Positions 1,183-42,418 of a DNA stretch of 64,000 nucleotides are shown one piece after another. The position numbers were made by a program, and so were the translations under genes. The notes beneath the pieces are model-generated. The model saw only the letters and a list, made by a program, of their open reading frames with translations, was not told where the DNA came from and ran no database searches. Origin of the DNA: Rossellomorea marisflavi (GTDB taxonomy: Bacteria > Bacillota > Bacilli > Bacillales > Bacillaceae_B); assembly GCF_022170785.1 (NCBI RefSeq), contig NZ_CP081870.1, positions 2,840,001 through 2,904,000 of the forward strand. The letters run 5' to 3'. Position 1 is the stretch's first letter, and every line of letters starts with the position of its first letter.

Positions 1183-1620
1183 TTATGGTTTCAAAATCAT
1201 GAGCAGGATGATTGCGATATTGATGGCCTGTGTGAACCACACTTTCGGAAGGAACAGGGCCATGCGCTTCCGGTATTCCTCCATAAAATATGGGCCGCTT
1301 TCCTGATTGAGCATTTCCCACAATGATAGGGCGGCCTTCCTTGACAGGACAGCAGACGAAAAGCGCATGATGAAGAAGAGGATCAGGGAAGCGATGATCC
1401 AAGGCTCGAACGGATAGCCGAGGATCACCATGCCGATACCGCTACCCAACAGGATGAAATCACTGCATTTCGCTAGTGTCCCCATTCCCCCAAGGAGCCC
1501 GAGGACCGTCCTTGCTCCTTCTTCTGAACGAGGGAATTGTAGCAGAAAGGGGAATAAGAACGTCTGTCCGAAACCGATGAGAGCTGTGGATACATGGATG
1601 ATCACAACGATTGAATACAT
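1183..1620 (-). CDS. Integral membrane protein, DUF2269-like
   Basis: A 145-residue hydrophobic protein with about four membrane segments. The start is set at the ATG at 1620 because GGGGG lies just upstream and the product then begins directly with a membrane helix (MYSIVVIIHVSTAL). A longer reading frame to 1686 has no better ribosome site and adds a polar tail. The short N-terminal His-containing helix and four-helix layout resemble small predicted integral membrane proteins of the DUF2269 type. That family call is tentative, and no function can be stated. Confidence 0.6.
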   Translation of the reverse strand: MYSIVVIIHVSTALIGFGQTFLFPFLLQFPRSEEGARTVLGLLGGMGTLAKCSDFILLGSGIGMVILGYPFEPWIIASLILFFIMRFSSAVLSRKAALSLWEMLNQESGPYFMEEYRKRMALFLPKVWFTQAINIAIILLMILKP

Positions 1621-1687
1621 ACCTGCCCCCTTCCCACTTATGAATATAGACCTACTATATGCGGAGCTCTCTGTCCTTTTCACCACT

Positions 1688-1722
1688 TAAAAAAGGCGGC
1701 CCTTTCCAAAGGTGGCCGCTTA
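1688..1722 (-). terminator. Rho-independent terminator upstream of the DUF2269-like gene
   Basis: On the minus strand a GC-rich stem of AGCGGCCACCTTT against AAAGGGCCGCC is followed by a run of six T. It lies downstream of the small ORF at 1791-1868 and would insulate the gene at 1183-1620 from it. Confidence 0.6.
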
Positions 1723-1790
1723 CCATGTTTCATCTTTCATTTGTGGACTCTGCCACTTTTCCTCCATAAAAAAAGAGGGCATCCGCCCCC

Positions 1791-1868
1791 TTACTCTGCA
1801 CCGACTTCTGCCGTGATGATCAACCCGATCGCCACGGTCACCACCAGACCCATAATCATGGAAAACAT
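1791..1868 (-). CDS. 25-residue hydrophobic peptide
   Basis: A very short ORF, too small for usual gene callers. It starts at ATG 1868 with AAGGAG nine bases upstream and ends with TAA at 1791. The peptide is MFSMIMGLVVTVAIGLIITA followed by a short acidic tail (EVGAE), that is, one membrane helix. A hairpin with a T-run (about 1770-1790) follows the stop at once. An ORF with a good ribosome site and its own terminator is likely to be a real small membrane protein. No function is recognised. Confidence 0.55.
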   Translation of the reverse strand: MFSMIMGLVVTVAIGLIITAEVGAE

Positions 1869-2043
1869 GACGCAAAACTCCTTCCATTGCTACGTCCTTA
1901 CGGTCAGTATATCACCACAAGTGCCTCATGAATCCTTCCATTCATGAACACCCTGTTGCGATTCTTTGACAGATATGTGTCCTCTCCTCCAGTCATAATC
2001 AATAACTCCTGACAATATAGTGAGAGAGAAGAGAGGTGACGGT

Positions 2044-2802
2044 ATGTTCAAGAAGCGACGACCGAAACGATCTCCCCTACCTGCACGGCATGTCTTCATC
2101 ATATCGTTCATCGTGTTCGTGCTGATGACGGTACAGAGTCTGTACATGATCAATAGGGGCATCGAGCCCGCACTCATGGAAATCGCTGAAACAACGACCC
2201 GGCAGTTCGCCGCCCAGGCCATCAACGATTCCATTTCCAAAAACATCTCTGAAGAGGTGGATATCAATCAGTTGATCGTCAAACATGAAACCGGCGGAGA
2301 GCCCAGCTATAGCTTCGACCCGGGTATATACAACAAGCTGATCGCAGAATCGACCGAAAGGGTCCAGCAGTACCTTGATTATGTGGAGAAAGGCGACCTG
2401 GAAAAGCTCGAAGCCTTTACCTCTGAGACGGAAATCGATTTTGAGAAAAGCAAAGATGCAAAAGGCATTGTGTATTATGTGCCCCTCGGCCTTGCAGCGA
2501 ATAATACCCTCCTTGCCAATATGGGCCCGCAGATCCCCATCCAGTTCATGATCATCGGGGACGTGCAATCGAATGTAGAAACACAAACAAATGTGGTCGG
2601 GATCAATAACACCTATCTCGAAGTGTATATCAACATTTCGGTTGAAATGAATGTAATCATTCCGAGGCGGACCAAAACGATCAAGGTGGCCAACAAAGTC
2701 AAAATCGGCGATCTGTTCATACCAGGAAAAGTCCCGGACTTTTATAGCGGGAACGGCAGCGGCAGCTCCCCTGCCATCCAGCTTCCGAAAAAAAGCGAAT
2801 AG
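2044..2802 (+). CDS. yunB: Sporulation protein YunB
   Basis: The 252-residue product matches the YunB family, made in the mother cell under SigE control and needed for normal sporulation in B. subtilis. It begins with a basic segment, then one membrane helix (about residues 18-40, HVFIISFIVFVLMTVQSLYM), and a long domain resembling SpoIIR/YunB-type proteins. The start chosen is ATG 2044, preceded by GAGGTGACGG; the eight upstream codons carry the ribosome site itself. A strong terminator follows the stop at once, so it is monocistronic. It is convergent with the minus-strand small ORF cluster. Confidence 0.85.
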   Translation: MFKKRRPKRSPLPARHVFIISFIVFVLMTVQSLYMINRGIEPALMEIAETTTRQFAAQAINDSISKNISEEVDINQLIVKHETGGEPSYSFDPGIYNKLIAESTERVQQYLDYVEKGDLEKLEAFTSETEIDFEKSKDAKGIVYYVPLGLAANNTLLANMGPQIPIQFMIIGDVQSNVETQTNVVGINNTYLEVYINISVEMNVIIPRRTKTIKVANKVKIGDLFIPGKVPDFYSGNGSGSSPAIQLPKKSE

Positions 2803-2836
2803 AAAAAGCGGGTCCGGTAGCGGACCCGCTTTCTTC
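2803..2836. terminator. Bidirectional terminator between yunB and the small-ORF cluster
   Basis: A perfect 10-base-pair stem, AGCGGGTCCG against CGGACCCGCT, with a 4-base loop. It has a T-rich tract on one side and an A-run on the other, so it can stop yunB on the plus strand and the small ORFs on the minus strand. Confidence 0.85.
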
Positions 2837-2837
2837 A

Positions 2838-2909
2838 TTATTCCGGCATCCGCTTCTTCTTGAAGAACCTGCCGATCATCACTGTCCAAATCGAGATGGT
2901 CAAAAACAT
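2838..2909 (-). CDS. Possible 23-residue basic peptide
   Basis: The ORF starts at ATG 2909 and ends with TAA at 2838, two bases before the shared terminator. The peptide has a hydrophobic first half (MFLTISIWTVMIG) and a basic end (RFFKKKRMPE). GGTGACAGG precedes the ATG, but the spacing is short. It is the last of three closely spaced small ORFs on the minus strand. The position is suggestive, but translation is uncertain. Confidence 0.3.
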   Translation of the reverse strand: MFLTISIWTVMIGRFFKKKRMPE

Positions 2910-2933
2910 CCTGTCACCAACCCTTCACGTTCG

Positions 2934-2993
2934 TTAGGCTGTGTCCTTCTCCACCCAGAGCGCATTCAGCCTTTTCACTTGTATAAAAATCAT
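2934..2993 (-). CDS. Possible 19-residue peptide (21 from the upstream ATG)
   Basis: AGGGAGGAG lies about seven bases before ATG 2993. Another ATG at 2997-2999 sits too close to that ribosome site. The peptide is MIFIQVKRLNALWVEKDTA. It lies 36 bases downstream of the yrzI-type gene and upstream of the 23-residue ORF, with no terminator between them. The excellent ribosome site is the main support. Confidence 0.4.
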   Translation of the reverse strand: MIFIQVKRLNALWVEKDTA

Positions 2994-3029
2994 GTTCATT
3001 CTCCTCCCTATGGTTTGATCGTACAGGTA

Positions 3030-3173
3030 TTACAGCGTATGTGATGTGAAGTGCTGCTGTCTTGTCTTGGTCTCTTCGAAATGCTTCGAGACCGATTCAT
3101 TATGTGTAGCTTCTTCGAATGACGTACGCTTCTTTTTCAACGTAAGCGTCACGAATAGTAAGTTAAGAGTCAT
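3030..3173 (-). CDS. yrzI: YrzI-family small protein (possible sporulation role)
   Basis: A 47-residue product beginning MTLNLLFVTLTLKKK, followed by a charged region. This fits the Bacillus small YrzI family, whose members have a hydrophobic N-terminus, a basic turn and an acidic-basic tail. Some species carry several in tandem, and a sporulation role has been proposed. The start is ATG 3173 because AAAGGGGGGA lies just upstream; a reading frame to 3281 only adds shadow codons. It heads a small minus-strand cluster of three short ORFs that ends at the terminator at 2803-2836. Confidence 0.7.
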   Translation of the reverse strand: MTLNLLFVTLTLKKKRTSFEEATHNESVSKHFEETKTRQQHFTSHTL

Positions 3174-3243
3174 GGCGATCCCCCCTTTCCAGTATTGTTT
3201 TTTTGCATGAAAAAACCGCAGGGACTCCCTTCCCGGCGGCGCA

Positions 3244-3280
3244 CAAAAAAGCCGCAGGAAGATGCATTCTCCCCGCGGCA
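3244..3280 (-). terminator. Rho-independent terminator after the 25-residue ORF
   Basis: On the minus strand GCCGCGGGGA pairs with TTCCTGCGGC (two G-T pairs), followed by TTTTTT. It sits about 15 bases downstream of the stop of the ORF at 3297-3374 and upstream of the yrzI-type gene. Confidence 0.75.
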
Positions 3281-3296
3281 TTCATTCACATATTGG

Positions 3297-3374
3297 TCAG
3301 AACGAAAGATATCCCACTGTCGGTCGAATGGTAATATGAAGTTGTACGGCGTTGATTCCTTTGATCATCATCAT
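3297..3374 (-). CDS. Probable 25-residue small protein
   Basis: A GGAGG ribosome site lies nine bases before the first of three consecutive ATG codons (3374, 3371, 3368). The peptide reads MMMIKGINAVQLHITIRPTV followed by GYLSF, with TGA at 3297. A clear terminator follows within 20 bases. An ORF with a consensus ribosome site and a private terminator is probably a real gene. It resembles no family I know. Confidence 0.5.
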   Translation of the reverse strand: MMMIKGINAVQLHITIRPTVGYLSF

Positions 3375-3510
3375 GTTACTCGACCTCCGTTTCCGTGTGA
3401 TATTTTTCTTACATTGGTTAGTATATCCAATTATAATGGAAAAGTAAACCACTTTTTAGAAAATATTTTTTCATACGATCAGCTTAATCCTTTATACCGG
3501 TCATGTTCTC

Positions 3511-3605
3511 CGTCCAAGACTTCGCTTTCCGCGGGTAGCGCGTGAGCCTCCACAATAGGCCTACGGGGTCACTCTTCCCTCAGGAGTCTCCGTCTTGCAC
3601 TCCAA
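3511..3605 (-). repeat. Interspersed Bacillaceae repeat (uninterrupted copy)
   Basis: On the minus strand this reads as GACTCCTGAGGGAA, then GACCCCGTAGGC, then GTGGAGGCTCACGCGC and CCCGCGGAAAGCGA. Its blocks correspond in order to the two halves that flank the IS element at 28453-30278 (GACCCCGCAGGC, GAGGAG/GCTTGACC, CCCCGCAGGAAAGC). It belongs to a GC-rich intergenic repeat I know from many Bacillus-group genomes. It contains no convincing gene. The flanking bases 3375-3510 hold only AT-rich sequence with likely promoter character. Confidence 0.65.
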
Positions 3606-3644
3606 TCAACCGCTTGAAGCAATGAATTTTCATCTTAACAAATT

Positions 3645-3693
3645 AAAAAACCCGAATTCATTTGCCTGATCCTTGGCGAATGAATTCGGGTTT
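3645..3693. terminator. Long hairpin terminator after yrhC
   Basis: AAACCCGAATTCATT pairs perfectly with AATGAATTCGGGTTT around a 16-base loop. On the minus strand it is followed by a T-run and ends the cysteine operon. Confidence 0.8.
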
Positions 3694-3717
3694 GCTATAA
3701 AAGCTTTTATCTCAGCC

Positions 3718-17894: not shown

Positions 17895-18147
17895 AAAAAG
17901 AATACAAAAAAGCCCTCATCCCTGATCAGGGACGAGAGCTAACTCGCGGTACCACCCTGGTTATGGATAAAGATTCTTATCCATCCCTCAATACGCCTTA
18001 ACGCGGCCATACGGCAGGGTTCTTCCTGCACTCCGGATCAGCATTCCGTCATCCTTCATCCGGGTACCCTTTCAGCCTAGGGGTGCCCTCTCTTCTCGAT
18101 GGACTATGACGTACTCGTTCCTTCATCGTTTTACGTGTATAAATTGG
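17895..18147 (-). promoter_or_regulatory. Alanine T-box leader of alaS
   Basis: The minus strand carries the T-box core AGGGTGGTACCGCG (17945-17959) followed by a terminator, CTCTCGTCCCTGATCAGGGATGAGGGC with a T-run (17910-17940). In stem I, CGTCAT pairs with ATGACG. The loop beyond it carries the AGTA box on the 5' side (GAGTA) and GAAT-GCT-GA on the 3' side. GCT is an alanine codon at the expected specifier position. Uncharged tRNA-Ala should pair with it and prevent termination. Confidence 0.92.
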
Positions 18148-35154: not shown

Positions 35155-36675
35155 TCAAGAGTTTAATTCCTGTGAGTGTTGAAGCTTTGAAGCTTTTCGC
35201 TTCCCAAGGAACAGCATCAATGCGACCAAGCCTGCAAGGAGGATGATGATGGTATACGGGTTCCCGGTCAGGCCGGCGATGACAAAACCGACGAGTGCGA
35301 TGCTTGCATTCACTGCTGCATACGGGAATTGCGTTTTCACGTGATCGATATGATCCGCACCGGCACCTGTTGACGACAATAGCGTCGTATCCGAAATCGG
35401 AGAACTGTGATCTCCGAAGATCCCCCCGGATAGAACCGCTCCGATGCACACGAGAAGCTCGGCATCAAGTGAGACCGCCATTGGGATGGCAATCGGGAGC
35501 ATGATGGCAAATGTCCCCCAGGAGGAACCGGATGCAAGGGACATGCCTGCTCCTACCAGGAAGAGGATCGCCGGGATGATGAAGGCGGGGATATTCCCTT
35601 TCACCAGTTCAACGATGTAAGAAGCTGTCCCCATTTCGCTGATCACCTTGCTGAGCGACCAGGCAAGCACAAGGGTCACGGCGACATACACCATCTTTTG
35701 CATGCCCCCCGTATAGATTTCGAAGATTTCATTGAATGTCTTCAATTTGTACGAAATCATCAAGATGATCAGGGAGATGGCCGCAAAAAGATAGGCGGTA
35801 CTCAGTGCCACCCTGAAAGCACTGCCTTCCACGGGTTTGAACGGGAAGCCCTTTGACGCCAGGAGACCGAAGAGCGTGACGAATAGGATCAAAAGGGGAA
35901 GCCAGATCAAGACCGGTTTACTCGGCTTCAGTCCCCCATCCTCTGCTTTTCTCAGAGGCTTTGATGTTTTCCAGTAGAGCTCACCCTTGCTTGCCCTATC
36001 CTCAGCCGACTTCATCGGTCCGAAGTCAAGCTTCAGAAGTGCAACCAGTGGCACCATGGATACGGCAAGGAGGGCATAAAATTGAAACGGGATCACATGA
36101 ATCAGCGTGCTGAATTCAGAAGTGGTGATATCGAGATGATCAAACTCCTTCTTGATCAGTCCCATGATGTAGACGCCCCATCCGATAAATGGAATCAGGA
36201 CCGCCACCGGCGAAGAGGTGGAGTCAATGATCCATGCAAGCTTCTCACGGGAGACTTTCACTTTATCGAATATCTTCTCAAAAACGGGCCCTACGATCAA
36301 AGGGGTGCCGAGATCGGAGAAGAAGATGATGATGCCGCCAATCCAGGCTGATACTTGGGCTTTCGCTTTTGAATTGATTAAGTTGGTGGCACTATTGGCC
36401 AGGGCCGCTCCTCCTCCTGACTTCTCCATGAGGGCGACGAATCCCCCGATGAAAAAGAGAAGGACAAGCACGGCGGCATTATAGCTGTCTGCCACCTGCG
36501 GGAACATGAATTCCCCGATGGTTTGCATTGTAGCCTCAAGTGGCCTTCCGCCTACAAGCATGAGGACACCGACATATACGCCGGAGAATAAAGAAATAAT
36601 GACATTTTTCGTGATGACCGCCAGTAGCACGGCGATGATCGGCGGCAGTAGGGATAACCAGCCCATATGTTCCAT
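35155..36675 (-). CDS. NhaC-family Na+/H+ antiporter-like transporter
   Basis: A 506-residue membrane protein with about 11-13 helices, of the NhaC superfamily (sodium/proton antiporters and malate-lactate antiporters). Family motifs are the acidic-polar helix SDLGTPLIVGPVFE, DSTSSPVAVLIPFIGWG and the C-terminal GAVLSGGIFGDHSSPISDTTLLSS. The start is ATG 36675 with AGGAGTGG upstream. The substrate is uncertain. It lies between tcdA and the group II intron, where B. subtilis has no such gene, so it is an insertion relative to that order. Confidence 0.85.
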   Translation of the reverse strand: MEHMGWLSLLPPIIAVLLAVITKNVIISLFSGVYVGVLMLVGGRPLEATMQTIGEFMFPQVADSYNAAVLVLLFFIGGFVALMEKSGGGAALANSATNLINSKAKAQVSAWIGGIIIFFSDLGTPLIVGPVFEKIFDKVKVSREKLAWIIDSTSSPVAVLIPFIGWGVYIMGLIKKEFDHLDITTSEFSTLIHVIPFQFYALLAVSMVPLVALLKLDFGPMKSAEDRASKGELYWKTSKPLRKAEDGGLKPSKPVLIWLPLLILFVTLFGLLASKGFPFKPVEGSAFRVALSTAYLFAAISLIILMISYKLKTFNEIFEIYTGGMQKMVYVAVTLVLAWSLSKVISEMGTASYIVELVKGNIPAFIIPAILFLVGAGMSLASGSSWGTFAIMLPIAIPMAVSLDAELLVCIGAVLSGGIFGDHSSPISDTTLLSSTGAGADHIDHVKTQFPYAAVNASIALVGFVIAGLTGNPYTIIILLAGLVALMLFLGKRKASKLQHSQELNS

Positions 36676-36721
36676 GTTGACCACTCCTATGATGTAAAGT
36701 TAGCAAAGATTACCTTTAAAA

Positions 36722-36750
36722 AGTATAGGGCTTGTCGACAGTTTCCGCAA
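36722..36750 (-). promoter_or_regulatory. Possible promoter of the NhaC-like gene
   Basis: TTGCGG (36745-36750) and TATACT (36722-36727) with a 17-base spacer on the minus strand, about 50 bases before the start codon. It is separate from the intron, whose 3' end lies at 36818. Confidence 0.5.
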
Positions 36751-36817: not shown

Positions 36818-38704
36818 ATCGAGTAGGAGGGGATGATTAATCCCCGACCTCTCACACCACCGTACGTACCGATCGGTATACGGCGGTTCAATTAAGATAC
36901 TTGACGAAGCTTTTCGTAACGATGTGATAGGCTTAGAAGCCCTTGATACTTCCAAAAGGAAGTATCAAGGGTTTTGTGCAATACAGGGCTATGGGCAATT
37001 CTCCAATATCCCTTGCGGGAAAGACCCCACTCATATGCTTTCCACCTTGGGACTCCAAGTGCTGTAAGTTTCCTTATTCTTGTTTTGGGTCGTTTCCATT
37101 GCTTCCACAGACACATACGCAGTCTTCTTCTAATCCAAGAGTCCATCCTCTTTAAGACGCTTGGTGTGTCTGCGAGTTGGAAATATCCTACCCATCCCAT
37201 GATGTATTGGTTCAGTCTCCTAATTCGTGTTTCCATCGACCAACCCGAGGATCTGGAGGTGAGAGAACGGATCTTCTGCTTAAATCGCTTGATGCTTTTT
37301 AACGCGATTCTTACTTTCGGCTCCCTGCTTGCTATAAAACTGAACCCGAGAAAGGTTCTCTTCCATGAAGGCGCTACCGCAGATTTCTCCCGGTTGACCT
37401 TGAGCTTCAGTTTCTTTTCGAGAAAGCTGGTGACCGATTCCATCACTCTCTTTCCGGCTTTTGGCGTGCGCACATAGATTTGACAGTCATCTGCGTATCG
37501 TACGAAACGCAGACCTCGTCTTTCCAATTCCTTATCCAGTTCGTTCAACACAATATTCGAGAGAAGGGGACTGAGGGGACCGCCTTGAGGTGTTCCTTCC
37601 TCACTTTTGACCTTCACCCCTTGTATCATGATACCGGCATTCAGATAAGAACGGATCAACCTAAGGAGCACCTTATCCTCTATAGTCTTCGCAAGAAGAC
37701 CCATGAGCTTGTCGTGATTTACACGATCAAAGAACTTTTCCAAGTCCAAATCAACGACCCATGTGTATCCGTCCCGTATATATCCCTTTGCTTTCTTAAT
37801 CGCATCATGGGCACTTCGATTGGGTCGAAATCCGTAGCTGTGATTAGAAAAAGTGGGATCATATATGAGAGAGAGTACTTGGGTTATGGATTGTTGAATC
37901 ATACGATCCATAACCGTCGGGATCCCTAACAATCGAACGCCGCCGTCTGATTTCGGGATTTCAATCCGACGTACCGGGTCCGGTTTGTAGGTTCCCTGAA
38001 GGAGATTCTCCCGAATCACTTGCCATTCGTGTAAGATATGCCTTCGTAGGTTTTGTACGGGCATTAGGTCCACACCATGACTTCCCTTATTACGCTCCAC
38101 ACGTTTTAGCGCGTTAAGCATGTTCGGTTTTGACAGGATCGTGTTCATCAACATCCATCATCGTTCCTTTCTTCGTGTGTTTCGTTTCCTTATTCGATGG
38201 CACTGCCTCACACTTCCGTAAGCCCTCACGAGATTCATCGCTACTTCTTAACGGATAGCTCTTTCGATTGTCTGTGAGTTTCTCAGCTACCATGAGCCAG
38301 GGCGTAACACTCTCTTATTTGTTCAGTCCTTCCCGGCGTCCTCGATAACACCGGTACTATGACCTCTGCTGACTTCTGGCGGTTCAGCGGGGAATCACTT
38401 CCCCGGTTACCAAGTATTCAAGGCGTACCCGCCAGATCTCCCCGGGTAAGAATGCAGTCTTTCCCTCCATCTATCCGCCTCATTTACTTCCTACACCTTT
38501 GGCAGTTTGGACTTTGCCTTGTTAAGCAGACTCATCCAATGCAGAAAGCCTTCTATGAGATTCGTGTTCCTCGGACCGGAGGTTTGCCGCTCGCTTCCTT
38601 CAGATTCCGGGTCACCCCGGACACCCTTGCGTTAAGCTAACCGTTACAACTGCCTTCACGGCTCGGGACTTCCACCCTATAGACTACACCCATGCCGGGC
38701 GCAC
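36818..38704 (-). mobile_element. Class C group II intron
   Basis: About 1.89 kb on the minus strand. The 5' end is GTGCGCCCGGCATGG (38704), matching the GUGYG consensus. Near the 3' end a domain V-like hairpin (ACCGCCGTATACCGATCG over GTACGTACGGTGGT, about 36854-36890) is followed by a domain VI-like stem GGGGATTAATCATCCCC. The intron ends CTCGAT, a YAY-type end, at 36818. It sits seven bases behind the 6S RNA terminator hairpin, the preferred site of class C introns. It encodes one maturase and no endonuclease. Boundaries are inferred by eye. Confidence 0.85.
36892..38154 (-). CDS. ltrA: Group II intron reverse transcriptase/maturase
   Basis: A 420-residue protein with the reverse transcriptase domain first: RRIEIPKSDGGVRLLGIPTV, YGFRPNRSAHDAI, VDLDLEKFFDRVNHDKL, TPQGGPLSPLLSNI and the catalytic FVRYADDCQIYV. 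A maturase (X) domain ends the protein (YIMGWVGYFQLADTP). No HNH endonuclease follows, as in class C introns. The frame is intact, so the intron is potentially mobile. The start lies about 550 bases inside the intron, in domain IV. Confidence 0.93.
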   Translation of the reverse strand: MLMNTILSKPNMLNALKRVERNKGSHGVDLMPVQNLRRHILHEWQVIRENLLQGTYKPDPVRRIEIPKSDGGVRLLGIPTVMDRMIQQSITQVLSLIYDPTFSNHSYGFRPNRSAHDAIKKAKGYIRDGYTWVVDLDLEKFFDRVNHDKLMGLLAKTIEDKVLLRLIRSYLNAGIMIQGVKVKSEEGTPQGGPLSPLLSNIVLNELDKELERRGLRFVRYADDCQIYVRTPKAGKRVMESVTSFLEKKLKLKVNREKSAVAPSWKRTFLGFSFIASREPKVRIALKSIKRFKQKIRSLTSRSSGWSMETRIRRLNQYIMGWVGYFQLADTPSVLKRMDSWIRRRLRMCLWKQWKRPKTRIRKLTALGVPRWKAYEWGLSRKGYWRIAHSPVLHKTLDTSFWKYQGLLSLSHRYEKLRQVS

Positions 38705-38743
38705 TTAAAAAGAGCCGAATCTCGAAAGATTCGGCTCTTGTGC
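38705..38743 (-). terminator. Terminator of the 6S RNA gene, insertion site of the intron
   Basis: AAGAGCCGAATCT pairs perfectly with AGATTCGGCTCTT around the TTCG-type loop, followed by TTTAA. The next base on the minus strand is the first base of the group II intron. Confidence 0.85.
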
Positions 38744-38759
38744 ATTACGTATCCATTTG

Positions 38760-38962
38760 TGAAACGAGTCCCAATCGTGCCGTCGCTGCGTTTCCTTTGT
38801 TTTGAACCCGCTCTCGGCAGGTGGGTGCTTTATTCCACTACTTGTTAGTCCTCTTGAAGCGAGGCATGAACGCCTAGCGAAAAGTCAAGCTCCCAAGGTT
38901 TGAAGTGTTCGGTCAAAACTGATAGGTTAAAACGTCGGACACATCAGGACTCGTCTGTTATT
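38760..38962 (-). ncRNA. bsrA: 6S RNA (BsrA-type regulator of RNA polymerase)
   Basis: A 200-base noncoding stretch next to aspS, where B. subtilis has 6S-1 RNA (bsrA). GAGTCC (38947-38952) pairs with GGGACTC (38766-38772) to close a long, mostly double-stranded hairpin. Family-like segments include GTCCTGATGTG, GGAGCTTGACTTTTCGCTAG, GGCGTTCATGCC and CTGCCGAGAGCGGGTTC. 6S RNA binds the SigA holoenzyme active site in stationary phase. A promoter precedes it and a terminator follows it. Ends are estimated from these. Confidence 0.82.
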
Positions 38963-38968
38963 GACATC

Positions 38969-38998
38969 ATCATAGCATAGGAGCGGCATGATTTGCAA
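38969..38998 (-). promoter_or_regulatory. Promoter of the 6S RNA gene
   Basis: TTGCAA (38993-38998) and TATGAT (38969-38974), with an 18-base spacer and a TGC extension just upstream of the -10. Transcription should start near 38962. Confidence 0.65.
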
Positions 38999-39025: not shown

Positions 39026-40792
39026 TCATTCAACATCCAGTGATAGTGACAGTTCTTTCAGTTGGGCTTCGCTAACGCCTCCAGGTGCATCGGTGAGGAC
39101 ACAGCTTGCACTGGCCGTTTTAGGGAATGCAATGGTATCGCGAAGGTTCGAACGACCTGCAAGGAGCATCACCAAACGATCAAGGCCAAGGGCGATCCCG
39201 CCGTGTGGAGGAGTACCGTACTCAAATGCTTCCAGAAGGAATCCGAACTGCTCATTCGCTTCTTCTTTAGAGAATCCGAGGACACTGAACATTTTTTCCT
39301 GGATGTCACGCTCATAGATCCTGAGTGATCCACCGCCAAGCTCATATCCGTTCAATACAAGGTCATAGGCCTGAGCCCTTACTTCACCCGGGTTGGTCTC
39401 AAGAAGCTCGAGATCTTCCCTCACAGGCATGGTGAAAGGATGGTGTGCTGCATAATAGCGATTGTCTCCTTCATCGAACTCAAGAAGCGGCCAGTCCGTC
39501 ACCCATAGGAAGTTGAACACGGACTCATCAATCAGGCCGAGCTCTTTACCAAGCTTGAGGCGAAGCGCCCCAAGGGCATCGGCCACGACGGATTTTTTGT
39601 CGGCGACGAATAGGAGAAGGTCCCCTGTTTCTGCTTCTGAAGCAGCAGACAGGCTGGATGCATCCTCTTCCGATACGAACTTGGAAATCGGGCCTTTAAG
39701 ACCTTCTTCCTCTACCTTCAGCCATGCGAGCCCTTTTGCTCCATAGCGGGATACGAATTCTGTGAGACCATCGATATCTTTCCTTGAGTAATTGGAAGCG
39801 GCCCCTTTCACATTGATCAATTTCACTTGACCACCGCCTGCTACAGCACCCGAGAACACCTTGAATCCAGAATCCTTCACGATTTCGGATACATCGATCA
39901 GTTCCATGGCAAAACGGGTATCAGGCTTATCCGATCCATAGCGGCTCATGGCTTCATCATATGTCATGCGCGGGAAGACCGATTCGATATCCAGGCCTTT
40001 CACGTCCTTCATGAGCTTCGCCATCATTTCTTCGACCAACAGGATGATTTCTTCCTGTTCCATGAAGCTCATTTCCATATCGATCTGGGTGAATTCAGGC
40101 TGACGGTCTGCACGAAGATCCTCATCACGGAAGCAGCGGGCAATTTGGTAATAACGGTCGAATCCGGACACCATCAGAAGCTGTTTGAAAATCTGCGGCG
40201 ATTGAGGAAGGGCGTAGAATTCTCCTGGATGAACCCGGCTCGGTACAAGATAGTCACGTGCTCCTTCAGGCGTGCTCTTCGTCAGGATCGGGGTTTCCAC
40301 ATCAAGAAACCCATTCTCATTCAGGAAGCTGCGGAATGACGTGGTGACATTATGGCGCATCCTGAACGTCTCGGCCATCGCCGGGCGGCGGAGATCCACA
40401 TAGCGGTATTTCAAGCGCACGTCTTCTGATACTTCCATTTGATCGTCGATCATGAATGGTGGGGTCTTCGCTTCATTGATGATCTGTACATCTTCTGCAT
40501 GAATTTCAATTTTTCCGGTTTTCAGGTTCGGGTTGACCGTTCCTTCTCCCCGTGCAACGACCGATCCCGTTACGGAAATGACATACTCGTTTCGGATTCT
40601 TTCCGCCAGTTCGAGTGCTTCCTGAGAAAGATCGGGATTGAATACGACCTGAACGATCCCTTCACGGTCGCGGAGGTCGATGAAGATCAGACCCCCAAGG
40701 TCACGTCGTTTTTGCACCCATCCTTTGATGGTAATCGTTTCACCGATGAATGATTCCGTTACGTTTCCACAATAGGTTGTTCGTTTTGGCAT
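39026..40792 (-). CDS. aspS: Aspartyl-tRNA synthetase
   Basis: A 588-residue class IIb synthetase of the bacterial type. It has an N-terminal OB anticodon-binding domain ([22 protein letters not shown]), catalytic motif 2 ([29 protein letters not shown]), the GAD insertion domain (about residues 290-415) and motif 3 ([23 protein letters not shown]). It follows hisS by 24 bases and should share the hisS T-box leader. The 6S RNA gene lies just downstream. Confidence 0.96.
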
Positions 40793-42144: not shown

Positions 42145-42418
42145 TAAAAAAAGCCCTCGATCCCTTGTAATAAATACAAGGGACGAGAGCTGTTATTCCC
42201 GTGGTGCCACCCTAATTGGAGTCCTATAGACTCCCACTTCACCAGTTAACGCCTGGTACGTCCATCCCCTACTCTGGTTTCAGGGCGGAGCCTCCCGAGT
42301 GTTCATTCACTGATGTACCTTGCAGAAATGCTTGCAGCCCAGGGCATTTCCTCTCTTGGCAGGTGGAGACCAGCTACTATTCTCGATCGTCGGTTTTTGA
42401 AAGCTATATTATTTCTAT
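42145..42418 (-). promoter_or_regulatory. T-box leader of the hisS-aspS operon
   Basis: The minus strand shows the T-box core AGGGTGGCACCACGGG (about 42198-42213) followed by a terminator stem, CTCTCGTCCCTTGTA against TACAAGGGATCGAGGGC with a T-run (42148-42190). Stem I has an AATAGTA strand and, opposite it, GAATGAACACTCGG. CAC (His) lies in this loop, but its register relative to the alaS leader is shifted, so the specifier is not certain. Control by uncharged tRNA-His, and perhaps tRNA-Asp, is expected. Confidence 0.88.

Follow-up and report, generated by a model that had tools for sequence, protein, structure and literature searches.

Class C group II introns, the class to which GsI-IIC of Geobacillus stearothermophilus belongs, are said to sit behind intrinsic terminators, as Robart 2007 and Toor 2006 reportedly described. 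The sections of two published surveys that bear on this point likewise place class C introns behind terminators (PMC8919778; PMC4424553), and for the bacterial-C introns treated in PMC8919778 those sections do not state which RNAs own the terminators. The relevant passages of PMC7923331 give the class C ends as 5' GUGYG and 3' AY, and the pairing between IBS1 and EBS1 as 3-4 bp.

The element described here lies in a window of 64,000 nucleotides from Rossellomorea marisflavi (contig NZ_CP081870.1, positions 2,840,001 to 2,904,000). It shares with these introns the place directly behind a terminator hairpin, the short IBS1-EBS1 pairing and an intron-encoded protein (IEP) in which Pfam and NCBIfam revealed no endonuclease domain; it differs in that its terminator belongs to a 6S RNA gene. 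A title and abstract search of the open-licence literature returned no 6S RNA with a group II intron. We read the element as a class C group II intron retroelement that is intact and was recently mobile, at an ordinary 6S terminator address, and give this reading a probability of about 95%. Coordinates are collected in Table 1.

Table 1. Features of the intron locus in the window, and of the riboswitch locus L261 discussed below.
Feature	Position	Strand	Basis or remark
Class C group II intron, 1887 nt, 5' GTGCG ... CTCGAT 3'	36818..38704	-	three genome copies with identical ends; Rfam domains
Domain I region (RF02001)	38450..38621	-	143.3 bits
D1-D4 segment (RF01998)	38326..38409	-	74.1 bits
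Domains V and VI (RF00029)	36818..36888	-	45.5 bits, gathering score 40; permissive run and fold
Bulged branch-point A of domain VI, 7th base from 3' end	36824	-	fold
Sole base differing from sister copies, C here, T there	36875	-	C-G vs U.G next to D5 loop
EBS1 (UUAA), domain I loop	38522..38525	-	covaries with IBS1 in other lineages
IBS1 (UUAA), last four 5'-exon bases	38705..38708	-	pairs with EBS1
IEP, reverse transcriptase/maturase, 420 aa	36892..38154	-	RVT_1 and GIIM; YADD motif by eye
6S terminator hairpin, 13 bp, 4-nt loop	38710..38739	-	presumed recognition stem for insertion
6S RNA gene (RF00013)	38764..38953	-	Rfam; 94.8 bits vs gathering score 46.4
6S promoter-like site TTGCAA-18-TATGAT, TG before -10	38969..38998	-	consensus promoter scan
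aspS	39026..40792	-	5' of 6S
NhaC-like transporter ORF	35155..36684	-	3' of intron; all NCBIfam hits below curated cut-offs
Putative promoter of NhaC-like gene, TTGCGG-17-TATACT	36722..36750	-	read by eye; intact
Guanidine-I riboswitch	L261 1791-1894 (G277:C5:76500-84500)		its terminator up to 1922
Class C intron behind guanidine-I riboswitch	L261 1923-3792		IEP split into two overlapping ORFs
APC-type permease ORF	L261 3827-5194		NCBIfam hits below cut-off

Three Rfam models matched within the intron. The RF00029 match was absent from a first, faster Rfam scan and appeared in the permissive run; it ends exactly at 36818, the last base of the intron. Rfam and folds of the D5-D6 region show a domain V with a 2-nt bulge and a tetraloop, followed by a domain VI with a bulged A. 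The ends of all three genome copies (GTGCG ... GAT) match the class C consensus. Among proteins of known structure, the IEP is closest to the reverse transcriptase (RT) of GsI-IIC, itself class C (structure 6ar1; 557.8 bits over residues 2-418), with the next relative at 392 bits and LtrA at 148. GsI-IIC is an intron of high copy number, whereas the present element has three copies. Taken together, the IEP as compared by best hits rather than by a tree, the RNA domains, the hairpin and the 4-nt IBS1 confirm class C at the level of sequence; a different intron class was rejected, as IEP and RNA both indicate class C. The original prediction was thus right about the class, the domains and the ends. 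The range that it gave, 36818-38760, has the correct lower boundary and runs on through the terminator, well past the upper end of the intron.

The three copies in the host genome share their first and last bases. The window copy agrees with each of the other two at 1886 of 1887 bases, and it is the same single base that differs in both comparisons. We rejected damage to domain V as an interpretation of this difference, since it turns a U.G into a C-G pair; the window's version folds more strongly (-18.2 vs -15.8 kcal/mol). The 5' exons of the three copies are three different hairpins from unrelated terminators, each ending in TTTAA, and the 3' exons have only their first base, a T, in common. 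Owing to the exon bases common to the copies, the ends could formally be shifted by a few bases; the GTGCG at the start and the limit of domain VI in Rfam fix them.

An empty site is present in the relative G034; its 6S stretch shows 99% identity over 254 bases. With the intron removed, the window aligns to this site through the predicted junction without a gap on the 5' side, and on the 3' side runs ungapped for about 20 columns up to a 6-nt gap, which bears out the empty-site comparison that had been proposed. Because the base before the junction is A in the window and T in G034, the site in G034 is to be taken as that of a relative, not as the donor allele itself. The spliced exon junction would be expected to read TTTTTAA-TAGTTATAAG. 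With its exact ends, sister copies and empty site, the window intron is a clean textbook example.

Read along the minus strand, aspS comes first, followed by the 6S RNA gene, the terminator hairpin, the intron and the NhaC-like transporter ORF. The 6S RNA is full length: RF00013 model positions 1-187 were matched with a score over the gathering threshold, and interruption of the 6S RNA was rejected on this ground. We call the gene 6S-1 from its place 3' of aspS, where bsrA of Bacillus subtilis also lies. The 61 genomes searched have 116 6S genes, with at least one found in 60 of them, the present genome included. The 6S promoter-like site is the only such match on the minus strand between 36000 and 40000 in a consensus scan, which misses real promoters; the scan also gave no score to the putative promoter of the NhaC-like gene. 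That promoter has the same sequence in G034. Folded as DNA, the terminator hairpin reaches -14.4 kcal/mol (z = -7.9), and none of 200 shuffled sequences folds as well. The tail remaining after the full stem is short, TTTAA, and a terminator scan did not list the occupied 6S site. This suggests that termination at 6S could be weakened.

Several particulars of the original prediction need rewording in this light. It had named the 6S RNA as the host; the gene is indeed a 6S RNA, and what hosts the intron is its terminator, the RNA itself being uninterrupted. The spacing of seven bases between stem and intron holds if the terminal A-T pairs are left out of the stem, and becomes 5 nt for the full 13-bp stem. 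The label NhaC-like should be taken loosely, as every NCBIfam hit stayed below its cut-off. The terminator and the downstream promoter are intact, as had been stated.

Judging from what is described for the class, the intron RNA and the IEP would recognise a stem-loop formed in single-stranded DNA by the hairpin of the 6S terminator, EBS1 would pair with the four bases that end the 5' exon behind this hairpin, and reverse splicing would follow. The reverse transcriptase of the IEP would then copy the intron, probably primed from the replication fork, a mode of priming treated in part of PMC4424553. The insertion lies outside the mature 6S RNA and keeps promoter, gene and hairpin, so that it is probably near-neutral. 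No promoter-like match other than that of 6S occurs on this strand between 36000 and 40000, so read-through of the 6S terminator is probably the main source of intron transcription.

The pairing of EBS1 with IBS1 is further evidence for a class C intron at this site. The pair is UUAA/UUAA in the three copies of the window genome, AAUA/UAUU in G003, G012 and most of the G023 copies looked at, AACA/UGUU in two of three G028 copies and CAAA/UUUG in G001. In the loci L212 and L216 (see below) EBS1 and IBS1 fit over 3 bp. Exceptions by one base are a G023 copy with UGUU, which leaves a G.U pair, and a G028 copy with GGUU. By sequence comparison, then, the EBS1 loop and the end of the 5' exon change together across lineages.

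The preference for terminator hairpins is general. In a survey of class C introns elsewhere, a hairpin ended within 12 nt of the intron in 88 of 98 5' flanks, compared with 15-28 of 97-98 at control positions shifted 100-400 nt upstream of the intron. A hairpin together with at least five T in the last 12 nt was present in 85/98 flanks and in 5-8 at the shifted positions. Ten introns had no hairpin by the criterion used, although visual inspection shows an imperfect hairpin at several of them. The survey comprised 100 other class C 5' flanks taken by place, 98 of them usable: L145 was left out for want of a recognisable 5' end, and L177, with a flank of 3 nt, was not included in the hairpin count. 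Twenty flanks came from the genus; the other 80 (L108-L187) were hand-chosen, not drawn at random, from the best-scoring matches listed in a search of 397 genomes. That search scored at most six candidates per genome and the genus search about eight. The position of the window intron directly behind a hairpin, as predicted, is therefore matched by its sister copies and by most of these introns. Separately, we noted two class C introns in G012, one following a tRNA gene's terminator (L189 582-701) and one on the same strand as a 16S rRNA gene and about 0.5 kb 5' of it (L265, G012:C1:96500-102500).

Introns behind 6S RNA genes were found in five cases in all: the window and G401 (both 6S-1), the congener G003 (6S-2), Cytobacillus gottheilii and Oceanobacillus oncorhynchi. 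The G003 intron is 80% identical in DNA and lies 46 nt after 6S-2. In C. gottheilii (L216), hisS-like and aspS-like ORFs, named by eye, are followed by 6S and an intron with IEP and domains V-VI. In O. oncorhynchi (L212), a 6S-2-like RNA precedes a class C intron with an IEP, in which no domain V match was obtained at the Rfam threshold. The G401 contig carries an aspS-like ORF, 6S, a terminator and, at its very end, the opening bases of a class C intron; this intron has a different 5' end and no readable IEP. As the readable IEPs of G003, L216 and L212 are 82%, 67% and 48% identical to that of the window, we regard these three introns as separate arrivals. The locus thus adds the 6S RNA gene as a class C host site that recurs in several lineages. 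Within the genus, 40 fetched stretches with 41 6S copies (of 76 listed in 36 genomes) gave no blastn match to the window's intron, and a hairpin terminator, judged by eye, follows 6S in all but one of these stretches (L060). Among the matches listed in the 36 genomes, an intron lies immediately after 6S only in the window genome (G000, 6S-1) and in G003 (6S-2).

Such recurrence raises the question of whether 6S terminators are a preferred class C target, for example through heavy 6S transcription and strong hairpins. The five cases lend this some colour, as their elements differ where the IEP is readable, their EBS1 sequences differ too, and two of them fall within one genus of 36 genomes. The patterns used for counting are also strict and miss some true cases, which makes the counts lower bounds. 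These counts nevertheless speak against a preference. In 338 genomes of the order, with 402 class C 5' ends counted (G312 being counted double for 2 sites), only two were found behind 6S, one of them being the window that led us here; the 6S-plus-intron pattern matched 11 places in these genomes, 2 of them with 6S. The reversed-pattern control gave 4 matches, and the denominator pattern recovered 72 of the 80 loci L108-L187. A 6S profile that finds both controls detected 6S in 0 of 99 surveyed flanks. A collection of 84,980 species gave 2 real cases among 28 pattern matches; the other 26 were rejected as chance, having no 6S by nhmmer at E 1e-3. A broader pattern, which misses the window itself because the spacer is longer than allowed, matched 6 places in 397 genomes of the order, two of them 6S (G003 and G401), and 3 places, none of them 6S, in 398 genomes of the class. 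Including G401, this makes two cases beyond the window in 397 genomes, a number that chance could also yield. With roughly 1,500-3,700 terminators per genome, the lower a general figure and the upper derived from an excess of 17 per 20 kb, and about 1.9 6S genes per genome, chance alone predicts approximately 0.2-0.5 introns behind 6S. The 6S site is thus occupied about as frequently as would be expected of an ordinary terminator, and the numbers are compatible with a mild preference as well as with none. As they give no sign of a preference, we rejected it and consider it very unlikely.

An intron tied to 6S function, in which the element is driven by transcription reading through from the 6S promoter, or 6S 3'-end formation is altered by splicing or by the mere presence of the intron, appears highly improbable. 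It would fit the lone promoter-like match on the strand, the short tail left after the full stem, and the use of an upstream stem-loop as 5'-exon mark in class C splicing, described in the pertinent part of PMC7161350, by which one hairpin would serve both purposes. However, the 6S gene and its hairpin are intact, the sister copies lie behind unrelated terminators, and the other 6S copies fetched from the genus have no intron. A decayed, immobile remnant is scarcely credible. We rejected this reading because the IEP is intact and full length, with YADD and a maturase domain; the near-identical genome copies and a single difference that strengthens the domain V fold likewise speak against it. 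An intact and recently mobile element at an ordinary terminator, which happens to be that of 6S, accounts for the same observations, and the address is recurrent and tidy, not special.

The locus also has value as a pointer, in that terminator-seeking introns land in regulatory terminators too. An Rfam scan covered 53 class C 5' flanks (13 + 20 + 20). One (L095) lies behind 6S, as was known beforehand; the other 52 yielded one each of tRNA (L189), SAM riboswitch (L104), guanidine-I riboswitch (L119) and T-box (L123). The clearest cases of conditional terminators lie outside the window, in L261 and G023. In G277, the whole arrangement of guanidine-I riboswitch, intron and permease ORF (L261, Table 1) is contained in one 99-kb contig, and the permease ORF is followed by a second guanidine-I riboswitch and UAAP1/UAAP2 genes. 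In G023, a SAM riboswitch and its terminator are directly followed by a class C intron (L104 1337-1740). The riboswitch side and the metN side lie at intron ends on two contigs, C21 and C22 (L104 and L258), and joining across them probably gives the order SAM riboswitch, intron, metN; the MetN model scored 399.8 bits on the metN side, below its cut-off of 499.7. All seven relatives compared (L266-L272, the strongest matches from 21 genomes searched) have riboswitch, terminator and metN without an intron. The two flanks join directly in L267 and L269 and are separated by a single additional base in L271; in the remaining four, the sequence differs immediately beyond the junction. Finally, a T-box leader and its terminator precede a class C intron at a contig start (L123 / L263, G266:C6).

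These cases suggest that class C introns might exploit conditional terminators too, namely 6S terminators and riboswitch and T-box attenuators, with transcription and splicing of the retroelement following the host regulator. One hairpin would then act as the host's on/off switch and would mark both the landing place in DNA and the 5' exon to be spliced, and the retroelement would follow 6S promoter activity, SAM, guanidine or tRNA charging. On the whole we consider this unlikely. Three such leaders among 52 flanks may simply reflect how large a fraction of terminators are attenuators. As an interesting lead, and not a demonstrated function, the introns behind riboswitches and T-boxes merit more attention than the one at 6S. 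With an intron behind a riboswitch attenuator, the mRNA of the gene would have to include the intron and splice it out, so that these loci would offer a natural setting in which to test whether ligand sensing and splicing are coupled. Titles and abstracts in the open-licence literature gave no riboswitch with a group II intron, and the relevant part of PMC6064168 describes none.

Other arrangements were noted around 6S genes. In the near relative G027 (L060), an IS110-type transposase gene (426 aa; 784-2064 and around) lies between 6S-1 and the NhaC-like gene, and the native 6S terminator sequence is replaced. We rejected this insert as another group II intron, given its IS110-type transposase and lack of an Rfam intron match. 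Two 6S copies on the same strand, about 0.3-1.2 kb apart, occur in G008:C44, G009:C186, G011:C33, G028:C12 and G033:C6, with L041 among these stretches. The window itself contains two T-box leaders, at 17925-18135 and 42176-42399 (minus strand), the latter directly 5' of a hisS-like ORF, named by eye, which itself precedes aspS.
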